Of a stretch of DNA of 64,000 nucleotides, positions 656 to 22,435 are shown in pieces (within the stretch, counting starts at the first letter, position 1; each line of letters begins with the position of its first letter). The stretch comes from an uncultured Cellvibrionales bacterium. Its GTDB lineage: Bacteria; Pseudomonadota; Gammaproteobacteria; Pseudomonadales; GM7GCV1. The translations under genes and the position numbers were made by a program. The notes below the pieces were generated by a model. That model was not told the DNA's origin, ran no database searches, and worked only from the letters and a program-made list of their open reading frames with translations. The stretch lies in the NCBI GenBank assembly GCA_913063225.1, contig CAJXYP010000015.1:1-64000 (forward strand), given 5' to 3'.

Positions 656-3298
656 TTAGTTTAGCTGGGAGTCATTATTAAGCAGTGGCCGTTCTGGTTC
701 CACTCCTGCCGCCTGCCAGCGGGCCTGATATCGGTGGCCCGCAATACTGTTTAAGGCATCTGCAGAGGCCAATCGTTCCAAATCAGCTTTACTCAGTTTT
801 GCTCGCCGTGCCAACTCTTCAGTTGAAGCATAGGGCCTATCCCCCCTAGCCCGCTCAACTCGGGTGCCAATTTCTTCGGATAGCCCTTTAATTCTAGATA
901 AGCCCAAACGAAAACCTGAGGGATTTTGGTTGCCCTGGACATTTATCTCAAGGCGGTTTTCCCAAGCGCTGCTTTGTACATCCACGGGCAGTACCTTGAT
1001 GCCGTGCCTTTGGGCGTCCTGCACCAGCTGCGATACGGAATAGAACCCCATAGGCAGGCTGTTCAACAAAGCGCAGTAGAAGGCCGCTGGGTGGTGACAT
1101 TTAAGCCAGGAAGAAACATAGCAAAGCAATGCAAAACTTGCGGAGTGCGCTTCGGGAAAACCGTAACCACCAAACCCTTTTATTTGCTCAAATATACGAC
1201 TGGCGTACTCCTGCGAATAACCTCTTTCCAACATGCCATGGATAAGTTTTTGTTCAAACTTCATCAAATTACCGTTTTTACCCCAACTCGCCATTGCCCT
1301 CCTTAGCTGATCTGCGTCGCCACCGCTGAAGCCAGCAGCTACCATGGCCATGCGGATGACCTGTTCCTGAAAAATAGGCACACCCAGGGTTGGTTCCAAG
1401 ACCTCTCTTATGGCTTCACTGGGATAAGTTACTTTTTCTATGCCATCACGTCGGCGCAAAAATGGATGCACCATATCTCCCTGTATAGGACCGGGACGCA
1501 CAATGGCTATCTCTATTACCAGATCATAAAACGTCTTTGGCTTTAAGCGCGGCAGCATGGACATCTGGGCGCGAGATTCCACTTGAAATACACCTATGCT
1601 GTCACCGCGGCTAAGCATCGCGTAAGTTGCTGGATCTTCTTTAGGGATATCGGATAATCCGGAAATACTAGGCTGGTAGCTGGATACCAGCTCTAATGCT
1701 CTGCGTATGGCTGACAACATTCCTAAAGCCAATACATCGATCTTCAACAAGCCCATGGATTCAATATCTTCTTTATCCCACTGGATAAGGGTGCGATCAG
1801 GCATAGCCGCATTTTCCAAAGGTACTAAATCACTAATCTGACCTTGGGTAATAATAAAGCCGCCTACATGCTGCGAAAGATGGCGAGGAAACCCTAGTAT
1901 CTGGTGCACCAGATCAAAAAACAGCTGCATGATATGTTGCTGCGGCTGCATACCGATTTCAGCGATACGCGCCTGTAGATCTTTGGATCTATCCCACCAG
2001 GCTAGTGATTTAGCCAGTTCATCAACTAATAGCGGATCCATTCCCAAAGCCTTGCCAACATCACGAATAGCGCTACGAAACCTATAGGTAATCACCGTAG
2101 CGGCCAAAGCCGCACGTTTACGACTGTATTTTTTGTAAATATATTGAATAACCTCTTCGCGGCGCTGGTGTTCAAAATCGATATCTATGTCTGGTGGCTC
2201 GTCGCGCTCTTTGGAGATAAAACGCTCAAACAACATATTAATCATTTCCGGTGATATCTCTGTGACCTGCAGGCAATAACAAACCACCGAATTTGCCGCC
2301 GATCCCCGACCTTGGCAGAGAATACCGCGTCCTCGGGCAAAACGAACCAGATCGTGCACCGTTAAGAAGTAGTATTCGTAGCGCATCTCCTCAATAAGCT
2401 GAAGTTCATGTTCAAGGGTGCCTTTTACCTTTTCAGGAACACCCCGAGGCCAACGTACAGCAGCACCTTCTGCGGTTAACTGGCGTAAGTACTGAATAGG
2501 TGTATGGCCTTTGGGGACCAGCTCTTGCGGATACTGATACTTAAGCTCATCCAAACTGAAATTACATTGATCGGCTATACGCATGCTTTCTTGTAAAAGC
2601 TCTGGCGCATAACGTATTTTCAAAATACGTATCGACTTTAAACAGCATTCGGCATTCGCACTAAGCTGATTACCCAACTGCTGAATCGGATGCTTCAAAC
2701 GAATACCGGTTAAAACATCTAACAAAGGCTTACAGGAACGATGATGCATTCGTATTTGAGGGCAGGCCAAAAGGGGAATGCCGTAAATGGCAGCTAGTTT
2801 TTCGAGTTGACCTATATCTTCAGATTCACCGCTCTCAAGCTGCCTATTGCAACCTATCCAGAGTCGCTCCTGAAACATACGACCTAATTGATCTGCCCAG
2901 TTATTAGACTGCTCATCTCGAACATCCGCTAACCAGATCAATAAACAGTTTTTTAAGCGGAACGGCAGGTCCTTTAGTTCTAATTGATATTGGCCTTTAG
3001 GCATACGCCGCCGAGCTAGCGTAATTAGGCCAGAGAGTTCCTGATAAGCCTGGCGATTTGGCGCTAAAGCCACTACATGACAGCCATCACGCAAATAGAA
3101 CTCACTGCCGATAATTAGCTTTATACCTAATTCCTTGGCTCGCACATGGGCTTTAACAATACCAGCAAAGGAACACTCATCCGTTATGGCTATTGCCCTG
3201 TAACCAAGTAAGTAGGCTTGTTCAACGAGCTCTTGCGGGTGTGCGGTACTTCTTAGGAAGGAAAAATTACTAAGGCTATGGAGTTGGGCATATTGCAT
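656..3298 (-). CDS. imuC: Error-prone DNA polymerase ImuC/DnaE2, lacking its C-terminal OB-fold domain
   Basis: C-family translesion polymerase alpha subunit of the ImuA-ImuB-ImuC mutasome, acting in SOS-induced mutagenesis. The N-terminal PHP domain begins with LHSLSNFSFLRSTAHPQEL and ITDECSFAG, as is typical of DnaE2. The palm carries PDIDIDF near residue 370, the catalytic aspartate motif, followed by fingers (GFPEAHSASFALL) and the helix-hairpin-helix region (SRIKGLSEEIG). The protein ends after AGHRYQARWQAAGVEPERPL plus a short tail, at 880 residues. DnaE2 proteins usually run to about 1030-1080 residues, with an OB-fold domain following exactly this point. The sequence after the stop encodes an unrelated membrane protein in every frame I examined, so this is not a simple frameshift. 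A separate gene at 20621-21073 encodes what looks like the missing domain. The polymerase assignment is very secure; whether the truncated form is active alone is unknown. Confidence 0.95.
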   Translation of the reverse strand: MQYAQLHSLSNFSFLRSTAHPQELVEQAYLLGYRAIAITDECSFAGIVKAHVRAKELGIKLIIGSEFYLRDGCHVVALAPNRQAYQELSGLITLARRRMPKGQYQLELKDLPFRLKNCLLIWLADVRDEQSNNWADQLGRMFQERLWIGCNRQLESGESEDIGQLEKLAAIYGIPLLACPQIRMHHRSCKPLLDVLTGIRLKHPIQQLGNQLSANAECCLKSIRILKIRYAPELLQESMRIADQCNFSLDELKYQYPQELVPKGHTPIQYLRQLTAEGAAVRWPRGVPEKVKGTLEHELQLIEEMRYEYYFLTVHDLVRFARGRGILCQGRGSAANSVVCYCLQVTEISPEMINMLFERFISKERDEPPDIDIDFEHQRREEVIQYIYKKYSRKRAALAATVITYRFRSAIRDVGKALGMDPLLVDELAKSLAWWDRSKDLQARIAEIGMQPQQHIMQLFFDLVHQILGFPRHLSQHVGGFIITQGQISDLVPLENAAMPDRTLIQWDKEDIESMGLLKIDVLALGMLSAIRRALELVSSYQPSISGLSDIPKEDPATYAMLSRGDSIGVFQVESRAQMSMLPRLKPKTFYDLVIEIAIVRPGPIQGDMVHPFLRRRDGIEKVTYPSEAIREVLEPTLGVPIFQEQVIRMAMVAAGFSGGDADQLRRAMASWGKNGNLMKFEQKLIHGMLERGYSQEYASRIFEQIKGFGGYGFPEAHSASFALLCYVSSWLKCHHPAAFYCALLNSLPMGFYSVSQLVQDAQRHGIKVLPVDVQSSAWENRLEINVQGNQNPSGFRLGLSRIKGLSEEIGTRVERARGDRPYASTEELARRAKLSKADLERLASADALNSIAGHRYQARWQAAGVEPERPLLNNDSQLN

Positions 3299-3337
3299 GG
3301 AGTTGTTTTGCTGAGATTAAGCAAGGCCTTCTATTTT

Positions 3338-3532
3338 TTACTGTAGTTTTGATCCTAGCGTTAAGATGCCCCAACGCTGGGTTGGACGTCGCCATTGGCG
3401 AGGCTTTTTGCTTCGCATGCTATTTCTCTGTACACCCAATCCCCATAAATCACTTTCCAGTCGGCAATCTTCGACAGGGCCCAAATACAAATCCTGCTGT
3501 TTGTTATACCAAAATCGTATTAATCGTCGCAT
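3338..3532 (-). CDS. Possible small basic protein between imuB and imuC
   Basis: A 64-codon ORF in the direction of the imu operon. The start MRRLIRFWYNKQQDLYLG is preceded by GAGG about six bases upstream of the ATG, a good ribosome-binding site, and the stop is 39 bases before imuC. The product is rich in Arg, Lys and Trp towards its C-terminus. I do not recognise it. Two plus-strand ORFs overlap the same bases (3349-3645, 3366-3560) but have no comparable start signal or context. It may be a genuine operon member or simply open reading frame in a 400-base spacer. Confidence 0.4.
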   Translation of the reverse strand: MRRLIRFWYNKQQDLYLGPVEDCRLESDLWGLGVQRNSMRSKKPRQWRRPTQRWGILTLGSKLQ

Positions 3533-3559
3533 GGGAACCTCAAAATGGTCAGGGGGCTA

Positions 3560-3702
3560 GTCAGGGAGTTCTGACGATGGACAAGTATGGCCTGGGGATA
3601 GAGTGCAAGGCGTCCCGCAGGGTGTTTCGCAGGCATATCGAATAAGGTAGGCAAGGAACAACCGAGGACACAGCGCAGCAATCGGCCTCAGGGCGTGCTT
3701 GT
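3560..3702. repeat. Structured GC-richer element in the imuB-imuC spacer, possible dispersed repeat
   Basis: This stretch differs in look from its surroundings. It opens with the hairpin GTCAG-N6-CTGAC (3560-3575), contains CCCGCAGGG, a twice-repeated CGCAGG and two copies of GGCCT followed by a G-rich run, and ends next to CTTGT, which can pair with ACAAG near 3591. It overlaps the last bases of imuB. Short GC-rich palindromic elements like this are often dispersed intergenic repeats in gammaproteobacteria. I cannot see a second copy in this window, so the repeat nature is inference. Confidence 0.3.
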
Positions 3703-5168
3703 TACGCAAATACACCTTGGGCATACCAGTTCTGATGTTCATTCAATTCCCTATATACCCAGCAATGTACTGAATCATCACGCCGTGCAATAAAATAATC
3801 CCGGGCCTCTGGCTGACTCCACCAGTAACCTTCAATACGTTCCGGGCCATCAATAATCTTAAGCGTCTTATTAATCTGCTTATCATTCCAATAAAGTAGA
3901 TTGCCACTGCGTTTTAGCGGTTGCGGTTTGGGTAATAACCAACAAGGGCGAGCGCCGCGCGGAACAGCCTCTTCCACAGTTTCTTCCGTATCAAAGGGCA
4001 ACTCCATGGTCTGCGCCAGTTCGGGTAAGTGCTCTGCCCTAACCTGAACTTGGTAAAGTTGTTTACGCCCCATACGGGTTTGTAACCTAGCCACCAAGGA
4101 TTCGACATTGCCTTGAATTCGCGCCGACTCCCAGGCAAAGAGACTTTCGCTACCCAGATCTACCGGTGAGGTTTTAGGACACTCAAGCTCCAGCATCTCT
4201 ACTTCAAAATTCAATTGCAGTTGCTCAAGCCGGATGCGTGTTAGGTCAAACAATAGCTCCCAATGTCTATGTACCCGCTCACAGCCAATTTCAATACTGT
4301 GCTTTTCGCCTTGAGGCGAATAAAAATGCCAGTAAATTTCCTGACACTGCAGTTGTTGTCGTACCAAATAATCCACCAACTGCTGTAATAACTGCTTAGC
4401 AGGCAACTCCAATAAATCCGTACGTACTACCGGCCAAGCGAAAGGTATCTGGCGACAAAAATGTTCGTTAGCTTGATAAATTGTCGGCGGCTTCTCGCCT
4501 CCTCCCATCAACTCTTGCAGATATGCCTGAAAACCTGGACCAAACCGCTTACCTAAGGCCGCGCTGGGAAGATCCACCACTTCTCCCAACTTAGTTAATC
4601 CCATTTTTTGCAGACCAGAAACAGCCAGCTCTTGCTCAGTTAAAAGATCCAGTGGGGATTCCCGTAATCGAGAAACAAATACTGTATGGCTATCTTTATC
4701 GCGTAATTCATAATTCTGAAAAGACAATAGCCAAGCACCCTTTTCTGTATGCGCCATACCCAGCTGATAGCTATAGGGCATATGGTCCAAAGATTCGCTT
4801 AACTCTTGAATCAAATTTTCGACACTGCCAAATAATCGCAGGCAACGGGATACTTCCAATAAAAGCGTATCTTCCTGATAACGTTGGATATAAGGCGTAT
4901 GACTGTAGGCCCAAGAAGCTAAGCGTTTAAGCACTTCCGTTTCTTTTTCTAGATCTCGACTACGCAAGTCACATCCGCCATCCTCAGCGACCAAAGCCGG
5001 CACCATGGCAGATTTCATTCCCGGCTTAATGCCTAAAAATACGGCTTCTTTAGTCGCCATCAGAATTCTTTTATTCTGCTCCACAGCCAAGCAACCCTTA
5101 GTGTTTTTAGGGGTATCAAAAACCTCCAGGGGCAATCGGGAAAGCCTAATAGCAACCCAAAGCATCAA
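3702..5168 (-). CDS. imuB: ImuB, Y-family polymerase-like mutasome adaptor
   Basis: 488 residues, the normal length for ImuB. The N-terminus MLWVAIRLSRLPLEVF and the segments LGIKPGMKSAMVPAL and QRYQEDTLLLEVSRCLRLFG follow the DinB/UmuC fold but lack the acidic catalytic residues of active Y-family polymerases, as known for ImuB. ImuB is established as the hub that links ImuC to ImuA and the beta clamp. The C-terminus GPERIEGYWWSQ...ARDYFIARRDD...WYAQGVFA is the standard ImuB ending, so the gene is complete. A segment QTMELPF near residue 390 might act as a clamp-binding peptide, but this is uncertain. It overlaps imuA by four bases (ATGA), implying translational coupling. Confidence 0.93.
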   Translation of the reverse strand: MMLWVAIRLSRLPLEVFDTPKNTKGCLAVEQNKRILMATKEAVFLGIKPGMKSAMVPALVAEDGGCDLRSRDLEKETEVLKRLASWAYSHTPYIQRYQEDTLLLEVSRCLRLFGSVENLIQELSESLDHMPYSYQLGMAHTEKGAWLLSFQNYELRDKDSHTVFVSRLRESPLDLLTEQELAVSGLQKMGLTKLGEVVDLPSAALGKRFGPGFQAYLQELMGGGEKPPTIYQANEHFCRQIPFAWPVVRTDLLELPAKQLLQQLVDYLVRQQLQCQEIYWHFYSPQGEKHSIEIGCERVHRHWELLFDLTRIRLEQLQLNFEVEMLELECPKTSPVDLGSESLFAWESARIQGNVESLVARLQTRMGRKQLYQVQVRAEHLPELAQTMELPFDTEETVEEAVPRGARPCWLLPKPQPLKRSGNLLYWNDKQINKTLKIIDGPERIEGYWWSQPEARDYFIARRDDSVHCWVYRELNEHQNWYAQGVFA

Positions 5169-5962
5169 GCACTCCTGTTACATAAAAAAATATTATTAGC
5201 TCGCTCTTCTGAGGTGGATTTGTTATCCCCAAAATGCTGTAAGTAAGCAGGCCAAGGCAGAAGTACCTTGCCGCGTTGGTAGCTGCCTCGTTGTTTATCA
5301 ATATGTACTTCTAAGCCGGCCTCGTGATTTTGCAGTACCAACCTAAGCACTGCTGGTGATGCCGAATAGGCCCTGCCCTTTGCCTGGTTAGAGGTTTGAC
5401 TAGAAGGTGCTCTGAAGTTTTGTTTAAGGGTTAATTTAGGCGTTGAACGCAGTAAAAAACATAAGGTACCGCTCTGGCTAACCGCGAGCTGTATCTTTCG
5501 TAGCTCCGGATAAAGCAGGCGCTGCTGCGGCTCCCAGCAAAGTAGCGCTACACAGCAATTGGCGGCTAAAACCTCCCGTACGCTGACCAACCAATCTTTC
5601 TTCTGCTGTGGGTCTATAACCAGCACCCTGGTCAAATCAATACCTTGCTGTGTAAGTGCTGGCGCATAGGGTATAGCGGGGGGATTAATCAAGGCCAGAC
5701 AACCTGGTTCTTGTTGCAGAAGAGCGCGCAGTGAAGGCAGTAGCAAATGCCATTCACCGTTGCCAAAAACTTGCTGTTGAAACTCGATCAATCCCTTAAG
5801 AGGCCAGCCCTTATGCAGCAATTGCTCATCCAGCTTTTTATAACCCGTAGAAACAGAAGAATTGCGTACTACAGGCCCATTACGTCCTTTCCAGATATCT
5901 GGACGGCGCATGATTTTCTGCAGAGGTGCAGATTTTTTTAGTTTAGGATAAGCTGACAGCAT
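5165..5962 (-). CDS. imuA: ImuA, RecA/SulA-like mutasome protein
   Basis: First gene of the SOS mutagenesis cassette. Features typical of ImuA are IMRRPDIWKGR near the N-terminus, then TGYKKLDEQLLHKGWPLKGLIEF (a degenerate RecA-like core without an obvious Walker A) and GEWHLLLPSLRALLQ. In well-studied systems ImuA associates with ImuB and RecA. The longest frame starts at 5962, but that codon touches the LexA box, which would leave almost no leader. The internal ATG at 5911 (MRRPDIWKGR) gives 248 residues and is the more family-like start, although no clear ribosome-binding site precedes it. The end overlaps imuB by four bases. Confidence 0.9.
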   Translation of the reverse strand: MLSAYPKLKKSAPLQKIMRRPDIWKGRNGPVVRNSSVSTGYKKLDEQLLHKGWPLKGLIEFQQQVFGNGEWHLLLPSLRALLQQEPGCLALINPPAIPYAPALTQQGIDLTRVLVIDPQQKKDWLVSVREVLAANCCVALLCWEPQQRLLYPELRKIQLAVSQSGTLCFLLRSTPKLTLKQNFRAPSSQTSNQAKGRAYSASPAVLRLVLQNHEAGLEVHIDKQRGSYQRGKVLLPWPAYLQHFGDNKSTSEERANNIFLCNRSA

Positions 5963-5981
5963 ACTGTGTTTATATACAGTA
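5962..5981. promoter_or_regulatory. LexA (SOS) box controlling the imu operon
   Basis: The 20-base palindrome TACTGTGTTTATATACAGTA matches the gammaproteobacterial LexA consensus TACTGTATATATATACAGTA at nearly every position, including both CTGT/ACAG half sites. It sits immediately upstream of imuA. On the minus strand, TTGAGT followed at promoter-like spacing by a TATA-rich hexamer inside the box suggests LexA covers the -10 region. The divergent efflux genes begin about 130 bases away on the other side and might also be affected. Confidence 0.9.
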
Positions 5982-19665: not shown

Positions 19666-20577
19666 TTAGAGGTCTTCGAGAATGGTGGAAAGTCGGCCTG
19701 CTGCCAACATAAGCCGGGTATGCGCAATGTGTTGCCCATCACTGACGTAGATATCATCCGGTGTGTAATCTTCTCTTAGGGTGTAAATAAAACGTGCCTC
19801 ACCGAACCCTTCTTCTAACCACAGATTAGGATCCAATTCTTCCGCTGCCGCGCCGGTGACCTGCTTACCCCGAACACTTTGGTACAGCTCTGGATAAGTA
19901 TCGTACCGTGCAAATAGGCCGACCGCCTCGTCCCACAATCCGTGAAGTGTTGTATCGCATCGGCCGGCAAAGCCCGGTTCAGAAGCACAGAATAAGTTAC
20001 CTCCCAAATCATGATCACATTGTCGATCCACACTCGTGGCGGCATGAAGAGGCTGATGCGCGTCAGCTTCCATATGTATTATGAAAGCTAGCAATATTGC
20101 TTTACTTACATCCTCGGTCGCCAGCTCATAACTTTCGAGAAGCAAAGGAAATACGCTAGCCAGATTAACTTCATTTTCGATCTGACATTGAGGGGCTTCG
20201 TCTCCCCCAATGTAGTGCGGTTGATTACGATAGTGCCAGGTACTAGTATCCGCATCGGACAAATGACTGAGTGGCTCGGGCACTTCTTGATTCCATTGCG
20301 CAAAAAGTTCTCCAAGAGGTATATTCCGAACGCGATCAGGGAAAGAGGCAATCTTGCCTAGATCTTCTGCGGAGCCGTAATTCTTCAGCAAAAAAAGCCG
20401 TTCATCTGTCTCAAATGTAGTTTCGAGCGTACGGGCTATTCGGTTTACTTCCCTACTTTGCTCTGGAGATAATGCTTTAACCGCTAAATCCACTATTAAA
20501 ACGTGCCCGTCGGTATTCCAAGCAAGTGCCGATGGAGCAACCAAACTAAGTAATAAAATAAACAGTAATTTTTTCAT
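19666..20577 (-). CDS. Secreted S1/P1-type nuclease
   Basis: 303 residues with the signal peptide MKKLLFILLLSLVAPSALA, cleaved to expose WNTDGH. In S1/P1 nucleases the mature N-terminal Trp and the following His bind the zinc trinuclear cluster. Further ligands are visible in FIIHMEADAHQPLHAA (HxxxDxHQPLH) and CDHDLGGN (D...GGN). The enzyme would be a periplasmic or secreted zinc-dependent nuclease acting on single-stranded nucleic acid and 3'-nucleotides, useful for phosphate or nucleoside scavenging. Family members mostly have WGxxGH; here the second position is Asn. It lies 43 bases after the OB-fold gene on the same strand. Confidence 0.88.
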   Translation of the reverse strand: MKKLLFILLLSLVAPSALAWNTDGHVLIVDLAVKALSPEQSREVNRIARTLETTFETDERLFLLKNYGSAEDLGKIASFPDRVRNIPLGELFAQWNQEVPEPLSHLSDADTSTWHYRNQPHYIGGDEAPQCQIENEVNLASVFPLLLESYELATEDVSKAILLAFIIHMEADAHQPLHAATSVDRQCDHDLGGNLFCASEPGFAGRCDTTLHGLWDEAVGLFARYDTYPELYQSVRGKQVTGAAAEELDPNLWLEEGFGEARFIYTLREDYTPDDIYVSDGQHIAHTRLMLAAGRLSTILEDL

Positions 20578-20620: not shown

Positions 20621-21073
20621 CTAATGAAAATCTCTTGATTTCACTGATAGGTTTTCAATTTCCTGAGAGTGATCTTCTAGTGATCCAGCAATAACATGAG
20701 TAACCCCCTGCGCTGTTTCAACACTACCTTTGATCAACAACAGGCTAGACGTCATTAGCTCCTTTCGGAAATTTTCTTGTACCTTCGGCCAGACAATAAC
20801 ATTTATGTTTCCGGTTTCATCTTCTAGTGTTAAAAACACCGTACCTTTGGCCGTGCCTGGACGTTGTCGACCCGTCACCAATCCCGCCACCTGAACAAAC
20901 CTGACAGAGTTTGTTTCTCCCAGCCGATTGGCAGGGCAACAGCGATCAAATGGTGGTTGCTTGCGTATCAATGACATTAAGTGTGGTCGAAGAGATACAC
21001 CTGTAGTCGCATAGTCCGAAATAATTTCCGAGAGTATTTCTGGCTTGGCAAGGAAAACACCATCATCGCTCAC
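20621..21073 (-). CDS. Stand-alone C-terminal OB-fold domain of DnaE2/ImuC
   Basis: 150 residues that read as the C-terminal end of DnaE2: ISDYATTGVSLRPHLMSLIR (the usual YxxTGLSLxxHPxxLLR linker-helix), VRFVQVAGLVTGRQRPGTA, GTVFLTLEDETGNINVIVWP, and LLIKGSVETAQGVTHVIAGSLEDHS. In ordinary DnaE2 this follows directly after the point where the window's ImuC stops. 880 plus 150 residues equals a normal DnaE2 length. The start is GTG with GGAG eight bases upstream, so it is built to be translated alone. It follows the OsmC gene by 30 bases and has no LexA box of its own that I can find. It could supply the missing domain in trans or be a leftover of another dnaE2 copy. Confidence 0.88.
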   Translation of the reverse strand: MSDDGVFLAKPEILSEIISDYATTGVSLRPHLMSLIRKQPPFDRCCPANRLGETNSVRFVQVAGLVTGRQRPGTAKGTVFLTLEDETGNINVIVWPKVQENFRKELMTSSLLLIKGSVETAQGVTHVIAGSLEDHSQEIENLSVKSRDFH

Positions 21074-21103: not shown

Positions 21104-21517
21104 TTATACGATTTCATAACTATGAGAGATTTCCACACCGCCTCTTTCCAAAATTATGGAAGCAGAACAGTATTTTTCGGCGGATAACTTTACCGCTCTT
21201 TTCACCATAGCTTGTTTTAGGTTAGTGCCACTTACGAAGAAGTGGAGATTGATCTTAGTAAATACCGCGGGCACTGCATCAGCCCGTTCGGCCTGAACTT
21301 CACAGCGACAATCTGTAACTTCCTGACGGCTTTTCTTCAATATATCGACCACATCAAAGGTGGAACAGCCTCCTACCCCTAACAGCAACATTTCCATAGG
21401 CCGTGGCCCTTGGTTTTTACCGCCATATTCCGGCGGTCCATCCATTATTAAACTATGACCACTGCCGCTATTAGCCTCAAAGCTAGCGTCTCCACGCCAG
21501 GTTATTTCTGCTTGCAA
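21104..21517 (-). CDS. OsmC/YhfA family protein
   Basis: 137 residues from a TTG at 21517 (M-QAEITWRGDASFEANSGSGH), chosen because GGAGAG lies five bases upstream and YhfA proteins begin at this position. The frame itself is open to 21562. Conserved features are a MDGPPEYGGKNQGPRPMEML region, the cysteine in LGVGGCSTFDVVDIL, and a second cysteine in SAEKYCSASIIL, the pair that forms the redox site in OsmC/Ohr peroxidases. The gene is adjacent and divergent to crp/vfr, as yhfA is to crp in E. coli and Pseudomonas. The precise substrate of the YhfA branch is unsettled. Confidence 0.85.
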   Translation of the reverse strand: MQAEITWRGDASFEANSGSGHSLIMDGPPEYGGKNQGPRPMEMLLLGVGGCSTFDVVDILKKSRQEVTDCRCEVQAERADAVPAVFTKINLHFFVSGTNLKQAMVKRAVKLSAEKYCSASIILERGGVEISHSYEIV

Positions 21518-21657
21518 ATGACTCTCCGTATAACTTTTATTATGCTCTAAACAGACTATCACAAGTCACTAAAATTCTTGGGGAAATATAGGCTTACGCA
21601 TCTCTGTAACGCGGATATAACTCTTTGACTTTGACACCTGCAAAGAATATTGTGAAT

Positions 21658-22356
21658 ATGAAAGCCAAAAAAATTCTTGCTCAAAAGATACTGCCACCAG
21701 GGGGTGCTGGTGGAACTCTAAACCCTCTATTGCGCCCAAGTAGTGCACCTAGCCTGCCAGCTTTTTTGGAGCACTGCCAAAGACGCAGGTATCCGGCTAA
21801 ATCCACCATCATATTCGCCGGTGAAAAAGGCGAATCGCTCTATTTCATTATTCGTGGGACCGTCACCGTTGTTATCGAAGACGACGAAGGCCGCAAAATG
21901 ATCATTGCATATATCAACGACGGTGAATTTTTTGGTGAGTTGGGCATCTTCAACGAAGGTGACAGAACTCGAAGCGCTTGGATTCGCGCAAAAACCGATT
22001 GCGAAGTTGCTGAAATTAGCTACGCAGGCTTTTTAGAGCTCTGGCGTGTCTATCCCGACATTCTATTTTCTATTGGCTCACAAATTGCCAACAGATTGAA
22101 AAAGACTACCCGTAAAGTAGGCGACCTTGCATTTATGGATGTAACCGGTCGTGTAGCGGGTTGCTTACTTGAGTTATGTAAACAACCCGATGCCATGACC
22201 CATCCAGACGGTATGCAGATTAAGGTTACTCGCCAATAAATCGGCCGTATTGTTGGCTGTTCAAGAGAGATGGTTGGGCGGGTACTTAAAGACCTTGAAG
22301 AACAAGGATTAGTCGAAGTTAAAGGTAAAAATATGGTCGTGTACGGGACTCGCTAG
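21658..22356 (+). pseudogene. vfr: CRP/Vfr orthologue interrupted by an in-frame stop in the helix-turn-helix
   Basis: cAMP receptor protein. The N-terminal cyclic-nucleotide domain is intact: [29 protein letters not shown] and [17 protein letters not shown] (Glu, Arg and Ser of the cAMP pocket), then the dimer helix and [20 protein letters not shown]. At 22237-22239 a TAA replaces the Glu codon expected in [14 protein letters not shown]. Beyond it the same frame continues for 38 codons ([19 protein letters not shown] ... MVVYGTR) to the normal stop at 22354-22356. Translation as written gives 193 residues without a DNA-binding domain. Everything else matches Vfr so well that the mutation must be recent, a sequencing error, or read through. 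The start is ATG 21658; a TTG at 21625 is an alternative. Confidence 0.9.
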
Positions 22357-22435
22357 CTATAGCGACTACTCCCGAGACCAAGCTTGATATACAAAATCTG
22401 GCGAGGCCATGGGGGAAAAACAAACAAAAAAAAGC

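Follow-up and report, generated by a model that had tools for sequence, protein, structure and literature searches.

A DnaE2 polymerase encoded in two parts: a separate OB-domain gene in a marine gammaproteobacterial genus and, independently, in an alphaproteobacterial family

The stretch of DNA analysed here, which we call the window, comprises 64,000 nucleotides of a contig from an uncultured marine bacterium of the Cellvibrionales. Near its start lie imuA, imuB, and imuC, the last of which encodes the error-prone polymerase DnaE2 without its C-terminal OB domain; about 17 kb away, also on the minus strand, a small gene encodes that domain as a protein of its own. In our judgment this DnaE2 is probably a two-chain enzyme to which the OB subunit is supplied in trans. 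A two-chain polymerase is the best-supported reading of the comparisons presented below, from which we infer a physical interaction of the OB protein with the polymerase, binding of single-stranded DNA, and a limiting or regulatory role for the OB protein. Catalytic chains that lack the OB domain are already known; the most interesting part is that the separation recurs in a second lineage, where the OB gene carries a LexA box.

Two Open Reading Frames, One DnaE2

The initial annotation proposed that imuC and a small open reading frame (ORF) are the halves of one polymerase. Its coordinates, strands, and lengths for both agree with those in Table 1, and the OB ORF does have its own GTG start with GGAG upstream. 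The NCBIfam model NF004225, for error-prone DNA polymerase, has 1047 columns. The product of imuC aligns with columns 5-894 (1230 bits), stopping at the linker, and the OB ORF with columns 903-1047, the last 145 (150.5 bits, E value 5.7e-44). About eight columns between them are unmatched, all of them linker. The Pfam domains found above cut-off are PHP, DNA_pol3_alpha, finger, and HHH_6 in imuC and tRNA_anti-codon (OB) in the small ORF. The latter is thus the OB domain of DnaE2 and not a member of another OB-fold family and, judged by these profile matches, the two ORFs together make up one complete predicted DnaE2.

The catalytic motifs PDIDID and KID are present in imuC, at the conserved columns D375, D377, and D526 of A3. 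Every core feature of DnaE2/ImuC that was tested was found in imuC, the sole departure being that the OB domain is missing from the same chain. A same-chain OB domain is typical of DnaE2 rather than defining; in each of the three species of the genus available to us (G000, G001, and G002, one genome each), the OB domain has a gene of its own. There is no tau-binding C-terminal domain: taken as one, the pair of chains finishes with the OB domain and its SRDFH tail.

Two C-family polymerases were found in the genome, namely the DnaE2 described here and another on a separate contig, taken to be the replicative DnaE1. A whole-genome search returned no second DnaE2, full-length or otherwise, and a single OB match. 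The OB ORF is therefore not a remnant beside an intact dnaE2, and that explanation was rejected.

Where the Chain Is Cut

When fused DnaE2 proteins are compared with the three split pairs, the cut falls in a variable linker. As the initial annotation had it, imuC ends there, after PERPLL; the OB protein starts in the same linker (DDGVxL), ahead of the helix DYxxTGLSLRxHxxSLLR. The claim that the OB protein begins with this helix needs a small correction: the helix is present, and further linker residues (SDDGVFLAKP) precede it. In a predicted model of the fused relative L043 (mean predicted local distance difference test [pLDDT] score 84), the linker at residues 871-890 scores about 52-56 between confident domains. 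Nothing conserved is lost at the split.

The model of the OB protein (pLDDT 83) was aligned with residues 964-1099 of the M. tuberculosis DNA polymerase 7pu7 using VIA-align (Z 13.1, root mean square deviation 4.2, 131 residues aligned), and the alignment takes in the helix part. The OB folds of tRNA synthetases score equally, over about 95 residues. Since polymerase and aminoacyl-tRNA-synthetase OB folds both match, the fold does not decide the family; the sequence does. The only hits of a PDB sequence search with the OB protein were weak ones, to the small subunit of archaeal PolD (E value 0.04).

The replicative DnaE of cyanobacteria is likewise encoded by two distant genes, and its products are rejoined by a split intein. 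This precedent speaks for the possibility that the two products in our genus are joined after synthesis by some unrecognised trans-splicing mechanism. However, the cyanobacterial enzyme is replicative and is cut at another site, whereas a Pfam scan and a comparison of the junctions found no intein domain here, as the initial annotation had also noted. Only a few residues follow the conserved ImuC end in the window and about 10 precede the conserved OB start, which leaves no room for intein halves, and a search for known RNA families, introns among them, found none in the window. Joining by an intein or at the RNA level was rejected on these grounds, and an unrecognised mechanism of trans-splicing is highly improbable.

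Conservation in the Genus and Its Order

The initial annotation pointed to related genomes as a check, and there a separate OB gene and a truncated imuC do occur together: in both sister species (L034 and L035) imuC encodes 881 and 876 amino acids, without an OB domain. The surroundings of the OB gene are fixed in the three species (pykA, S1/P1 nuclease, OB, osmC, crp, trpC); the genes after imuC differ in each. In G001 (L035), imuC (1501-4131) stands apart from imuA-imuB behind its own perfect LexA box at 1473-1488, so one species of the genus no longer has an unbroken imuA-imuB-imuC cassette.

In the rest of the order, dnaE2 is as a rule fused. No other standalone OB was found among 80 named genome loci, and all loci that do not run off a contig are fused. 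Several short OB frames were considered and rejected, being either frameshifts with the catalytic part adjacent (G065, G299, and G411) or located at contig ends (G422, G425, G449, and one G562 copy, the other G562 copies looking degenerate). Both genomes of the sister genus lack DnaE2 and the OB domain alike; in each (L127 and L132) osmC is followed by a coq7-like gene, which makes the OB gene look like a newcomer beside osmC. The order crp-osmC is ancestral in the bacterial order.

Separate trees for the catalytic and OB parts each unite the three species in one clade (100/100 and 98/94, respectively), placed in both beside the fused enzymes of Parahaliea and of a Teredinibacter/Porticoccaceae pair, and the internal branching is identical. 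One fission followed by joint inheritance is the simple reading of these matching trees.

The OB gene is under purifying selection. Nonsynonymous change (pN 0.21-0.31) is far below synonymous change (pS 0.71-0.85); the ratio of nonsynonymous to synonymous substitution rates was mostly not computable, as synonymous sites are saturated. Among 38 OB positions at least 90% conserved in fused enzymes, G000 keeps 36, G001 38, and G002 37, compared with a mean of 36.9 in the fused enzymes themselves. The SRDFH tail is invariant in the three standalone proteins, and the catalytic chains keep 283-287 of the 297 positions conserved in fused enzymes. These figures bear on the suggestion that the polymerase is decaying and that both pieces are remnants heading for loss. 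The OB protein diverges slightly faster, and the sister genus has no DnaE2, as decay might predict; yet both ORFs are intact in three species whose catalytic chains differ by 20-29%, and the selection on the OB gene and the retained catalytic and OB positions argue against it. We consider decay very unlikely.

A Second, Independent Split

A phylum-wide search with an OB profile revealed a second split, in a large alphaproteobacterial family of marine bacteria (f245) that is almost certainly Rhodobacteraceae, given its at least 149 genera and a query OB about 60-78% identical to plasmid-borne Roseobacter-group DnaE2. The family was sampled with one genome per genus (149 genera). OB-profile matches were found in 129 genera, about 61 of them standalone, although a few of the short frames are perhaps contig ends. 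DnaE2 was present in 41 of the 42 standalone-OB genomes searched. In the same search DnaE2 was matched in all 16 fused genomes and in neither of the two that have no OB. One genome, G939 (L219), is an unexplained exception, with a standalone OB gene and LexA box, yet no DnaE2 match at an E value of 1e-140.

Wherever polymerases were inspected in the presence of a standalone OB gene (28 from the 42-genome search and 5 earlier), all 33 lack the OB domain and end soon after the linker helix, with none nearby. The split alphaproteobacterial polymerases form one clade (100/100). As in the window genus, an OB-less catalytic DnaE2 is accompanied by a standalone OB gene whose surroundings are fixed. 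All 25 loci examined (L153-L157 and L208-L227) have it next to the same 2Fe-2S ferredoxin gene, and all 25 have a perfect GTTCN7GTTC LexA box shortly ahead of the OB start codon, against an expectation of 0.22 loci. There are differences, too. In the alphaproteobacteria the chain was severed beyond the linker helix, so that the polymerase retains the helix, and SRDFH has been lost; the two events were therefore independent and fell on either side of the helix. Most of these OB proteins also carry a new N-terminal WPRPP motif.

Pairwise distances of the alphaproteobacterial OB protein and polymerase are correlated (r 0.96, or 0.72 without one divergent genome). Between the OB protein and the neighbouring fdxB and degP, in the same genome sets and without the divergent genome, r is 0.30-0.38, and shared species history accounts for part of the OB-polymerase correlation.

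The genomes of the window genus are fragmented and possibly metagenome-assembled, and for that reason an assembly artefact or misjoin deserved consideration. The identical split and OB synteny occur, however, in three separate assemblies, and a comparable split is found in a second lineage, some of whose genomes are single contigs (for example G1025 and G933). These observations refute an artefact, which is hardly credible as an explanation.

Regulation and Weighing of the Evidence

All three genomes of the window genus have imuA and imuB with perfect LexA boxes, as in other imuA-imuB-DnaE2 mutasome cassettes. The site upstream of imuA has 18 of 20 letters of the extended consensus in each species, and the separate imuC of G001 has its own (16 of 20). 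At the OB gene and its operon no CTGTN8ACAG box was found in the three species, the best sites (11-12 of 20) equalling those of shuffled sequence. The initial annotation was thus right that only the catalytic half lies behind a LexA box. Located about 30 base pairs after osmC, the OB gene is probably co-transcribed with a non-SOS gene, and the missing box suggests that its expression in the genus may be constitutive. The further idea that constitutive OB supply is a layer of control for split DnaE2 has to be narrowed: it agrees with the window genus, but the alphaproteobacterial OB genes are preceded by a LexA box, so that constitutive OB would be a feature of the window genus and not of split DnaE2 generally. 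Control of the OB gene by the SOS response apparently applies in the alphaproteobacterial lineage and not in the window genus.

Several points weigh against a two-chain enzyme. One would not expect the LexA box to be missing from the gene for a subunit of an SOS polymerase. The OB proteins are 57-60% identical at 71-72% catalytic identity, where fused enzymes average 67.5 (standard deviation 7.4), and this faster change relative to the polymerase allows some relaxed constraint. Finally, the genus is represented here by three genomes, all of them draft assemblies.

The first of these points also favours the alternative that the polymerase dispenses with its OB domain and that the freed protein has taken on a new job, such as that of a constitutive single-stranded-DNA-binding factor unrelated to translesion synthesis. 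Similarly, OB-less DnaE2 has been noted before, in the part of PMC3919608 considered here, and G939 has the OB gene without a strong DnaE2 match. Nevertheless, the protein has kept the SRDFH tail and the DnaE2-specific OB columns, and the sister genus lacks both parts. The alphaproteobacterial evidence runs the same way: the LexA box, the presence of DnaE2 in nearly every genome with a standalone OB gene, its OB-less form wherever inspected, and an OB protein that evolves in step with it. A new job is therefore unlikely, though less so than the other alternatives discussed above.

How a Two-Chain DnaE2 Might Work

In our explanation, one ancestral imuC (dnaE2) gene underwent one break, in the linker that separates (HhH)2 from the OB domain. 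Its catalytic part stayed in the LexA-controlled imuA-imuB-imuC cassette, and the OB part, along with the linker helix and SRDFH tail, became a gene of its own in the presumed osmC operon; the OB protein most likely still serves the same polymerase in trans. The general view of the OB domain of the Pol III alpha subunit is that it binds single-stranded template DNA. In published models, ImuB contacts DnaE2 on the PHP and (HhH)2 regions (PMC12926913), both of which the OB-less chain keeps. ImuB could thus still bring the polymerase to the clamp, and the OB protein may bind single-stranded template ahead of the active site, adding grip in trans. It might dock non-covalently on the polymerase or on ImuB, or meet the polymerase through the shared DNA only.

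Since the helix went with the OB protein in one lineage and with the polymerase in the other, covalent linkage would seem not to be essential. The two separations together suggest that a bacterial polymerase can employ the domain that grips DNA as a detached component under regulation of its own. A broader idea, offered tentatively and with slightly less than even confidence, is that detaching OB has served repeatedly as a means of regulation, in a large part of the alphaproteobacterial family as in the window genus, whereby error-prone synthesis is gated or tuned through the supply of OB in trans, separately from the catalytic chain.

Relation to Known Systems

Known fused DnaE2 shares with the window genus its domains and their order, the SRDFH tail, the imuAB neighbours, and the LexA box on the catalytic cassette; it differs in having the OB domain in the same chain, instead of in another operon 17 kb away. 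The part of Timinskas et al. 2013 (PMC3919608) considered here gives the SRDF[H/R] C-terminal motif as DnaE2-specific (about 77% of DnaE2) and mentions several DnaE2 without OB, catalytic chains like the one here; unlike here, it makes no mention of a separate OB gene. No description of such a gene was found in the open-access literature, to which the search was confined, subscription papers lying outside it, and the portion of a 2026 survey considered contains no discussion of DnaE2 without OB.

The role of the OB domain in DnaE2 is unsettled, and two natural separations bear on it. With a LexA box at the OB gene in one and not in the other, they allow the OB domain to be deleted, titrated, or swapped while the catalytic chain is left untouched. 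In addition, the alphaproteobacterial OB gene is apparently a candidate SOS gene so far unnoticed in a large bacterial family, and may be a missing component for reconstituting the mutasome of that family.

Gene Neighbourhood in the Window

Table 1. Split DnaE2 genes and associated features in the window
Feature	Position	Strand	Remarks
imuC/dnaE2 catalytic chain	656..3298	-	880 amino acids; PHP, Pol3, fingers, (HhH)2; linker end ..GVEPERPLLNNDSQLN; without OB domain
Standalone DnaE2 OB-domain protein	20621..21073	-	150 amino acids; linker helix, OB barrel, C-terminal SRDFH motif
imuB, Y-family-like subunit	3702..5168	-	488 amino acids
imuA, first gene of imuA-imuB-imuC	5165..5962	-	
Perfect LexA box before imuA	5964..5979		CTGTGTTTATATACAG; 18/20 against extended consensus; likewise in both sister species
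OsmC-family gene	21104..21562	-	30 base pairs upstream of OB gene, same strand; presumed operon
Exported S1/P1-type nuclease	19666..20577	-	directly downstream of OB gene; family assigned by eye, without profile search

The S1/P1-type nuclease is probably merely a neighbour of the OB gene, in a gene order common to the three species. It diverges fast (46-57% identity across the three) and always lies directly 3' of the OB gene. After imuC, positions 343-639 encode a 98-amino-acid membrane protein with no relative seen in the sister-species loci examined. Of two tandem crp/vfr-like genes, the first (21625-22362) is interrupted ahead of the helix-turn-helix by one in-frame stop codon (VTRQ*IGRIVG), and its counterpart in G001 is internally deleted, so this first paralogue seems to be decaying.
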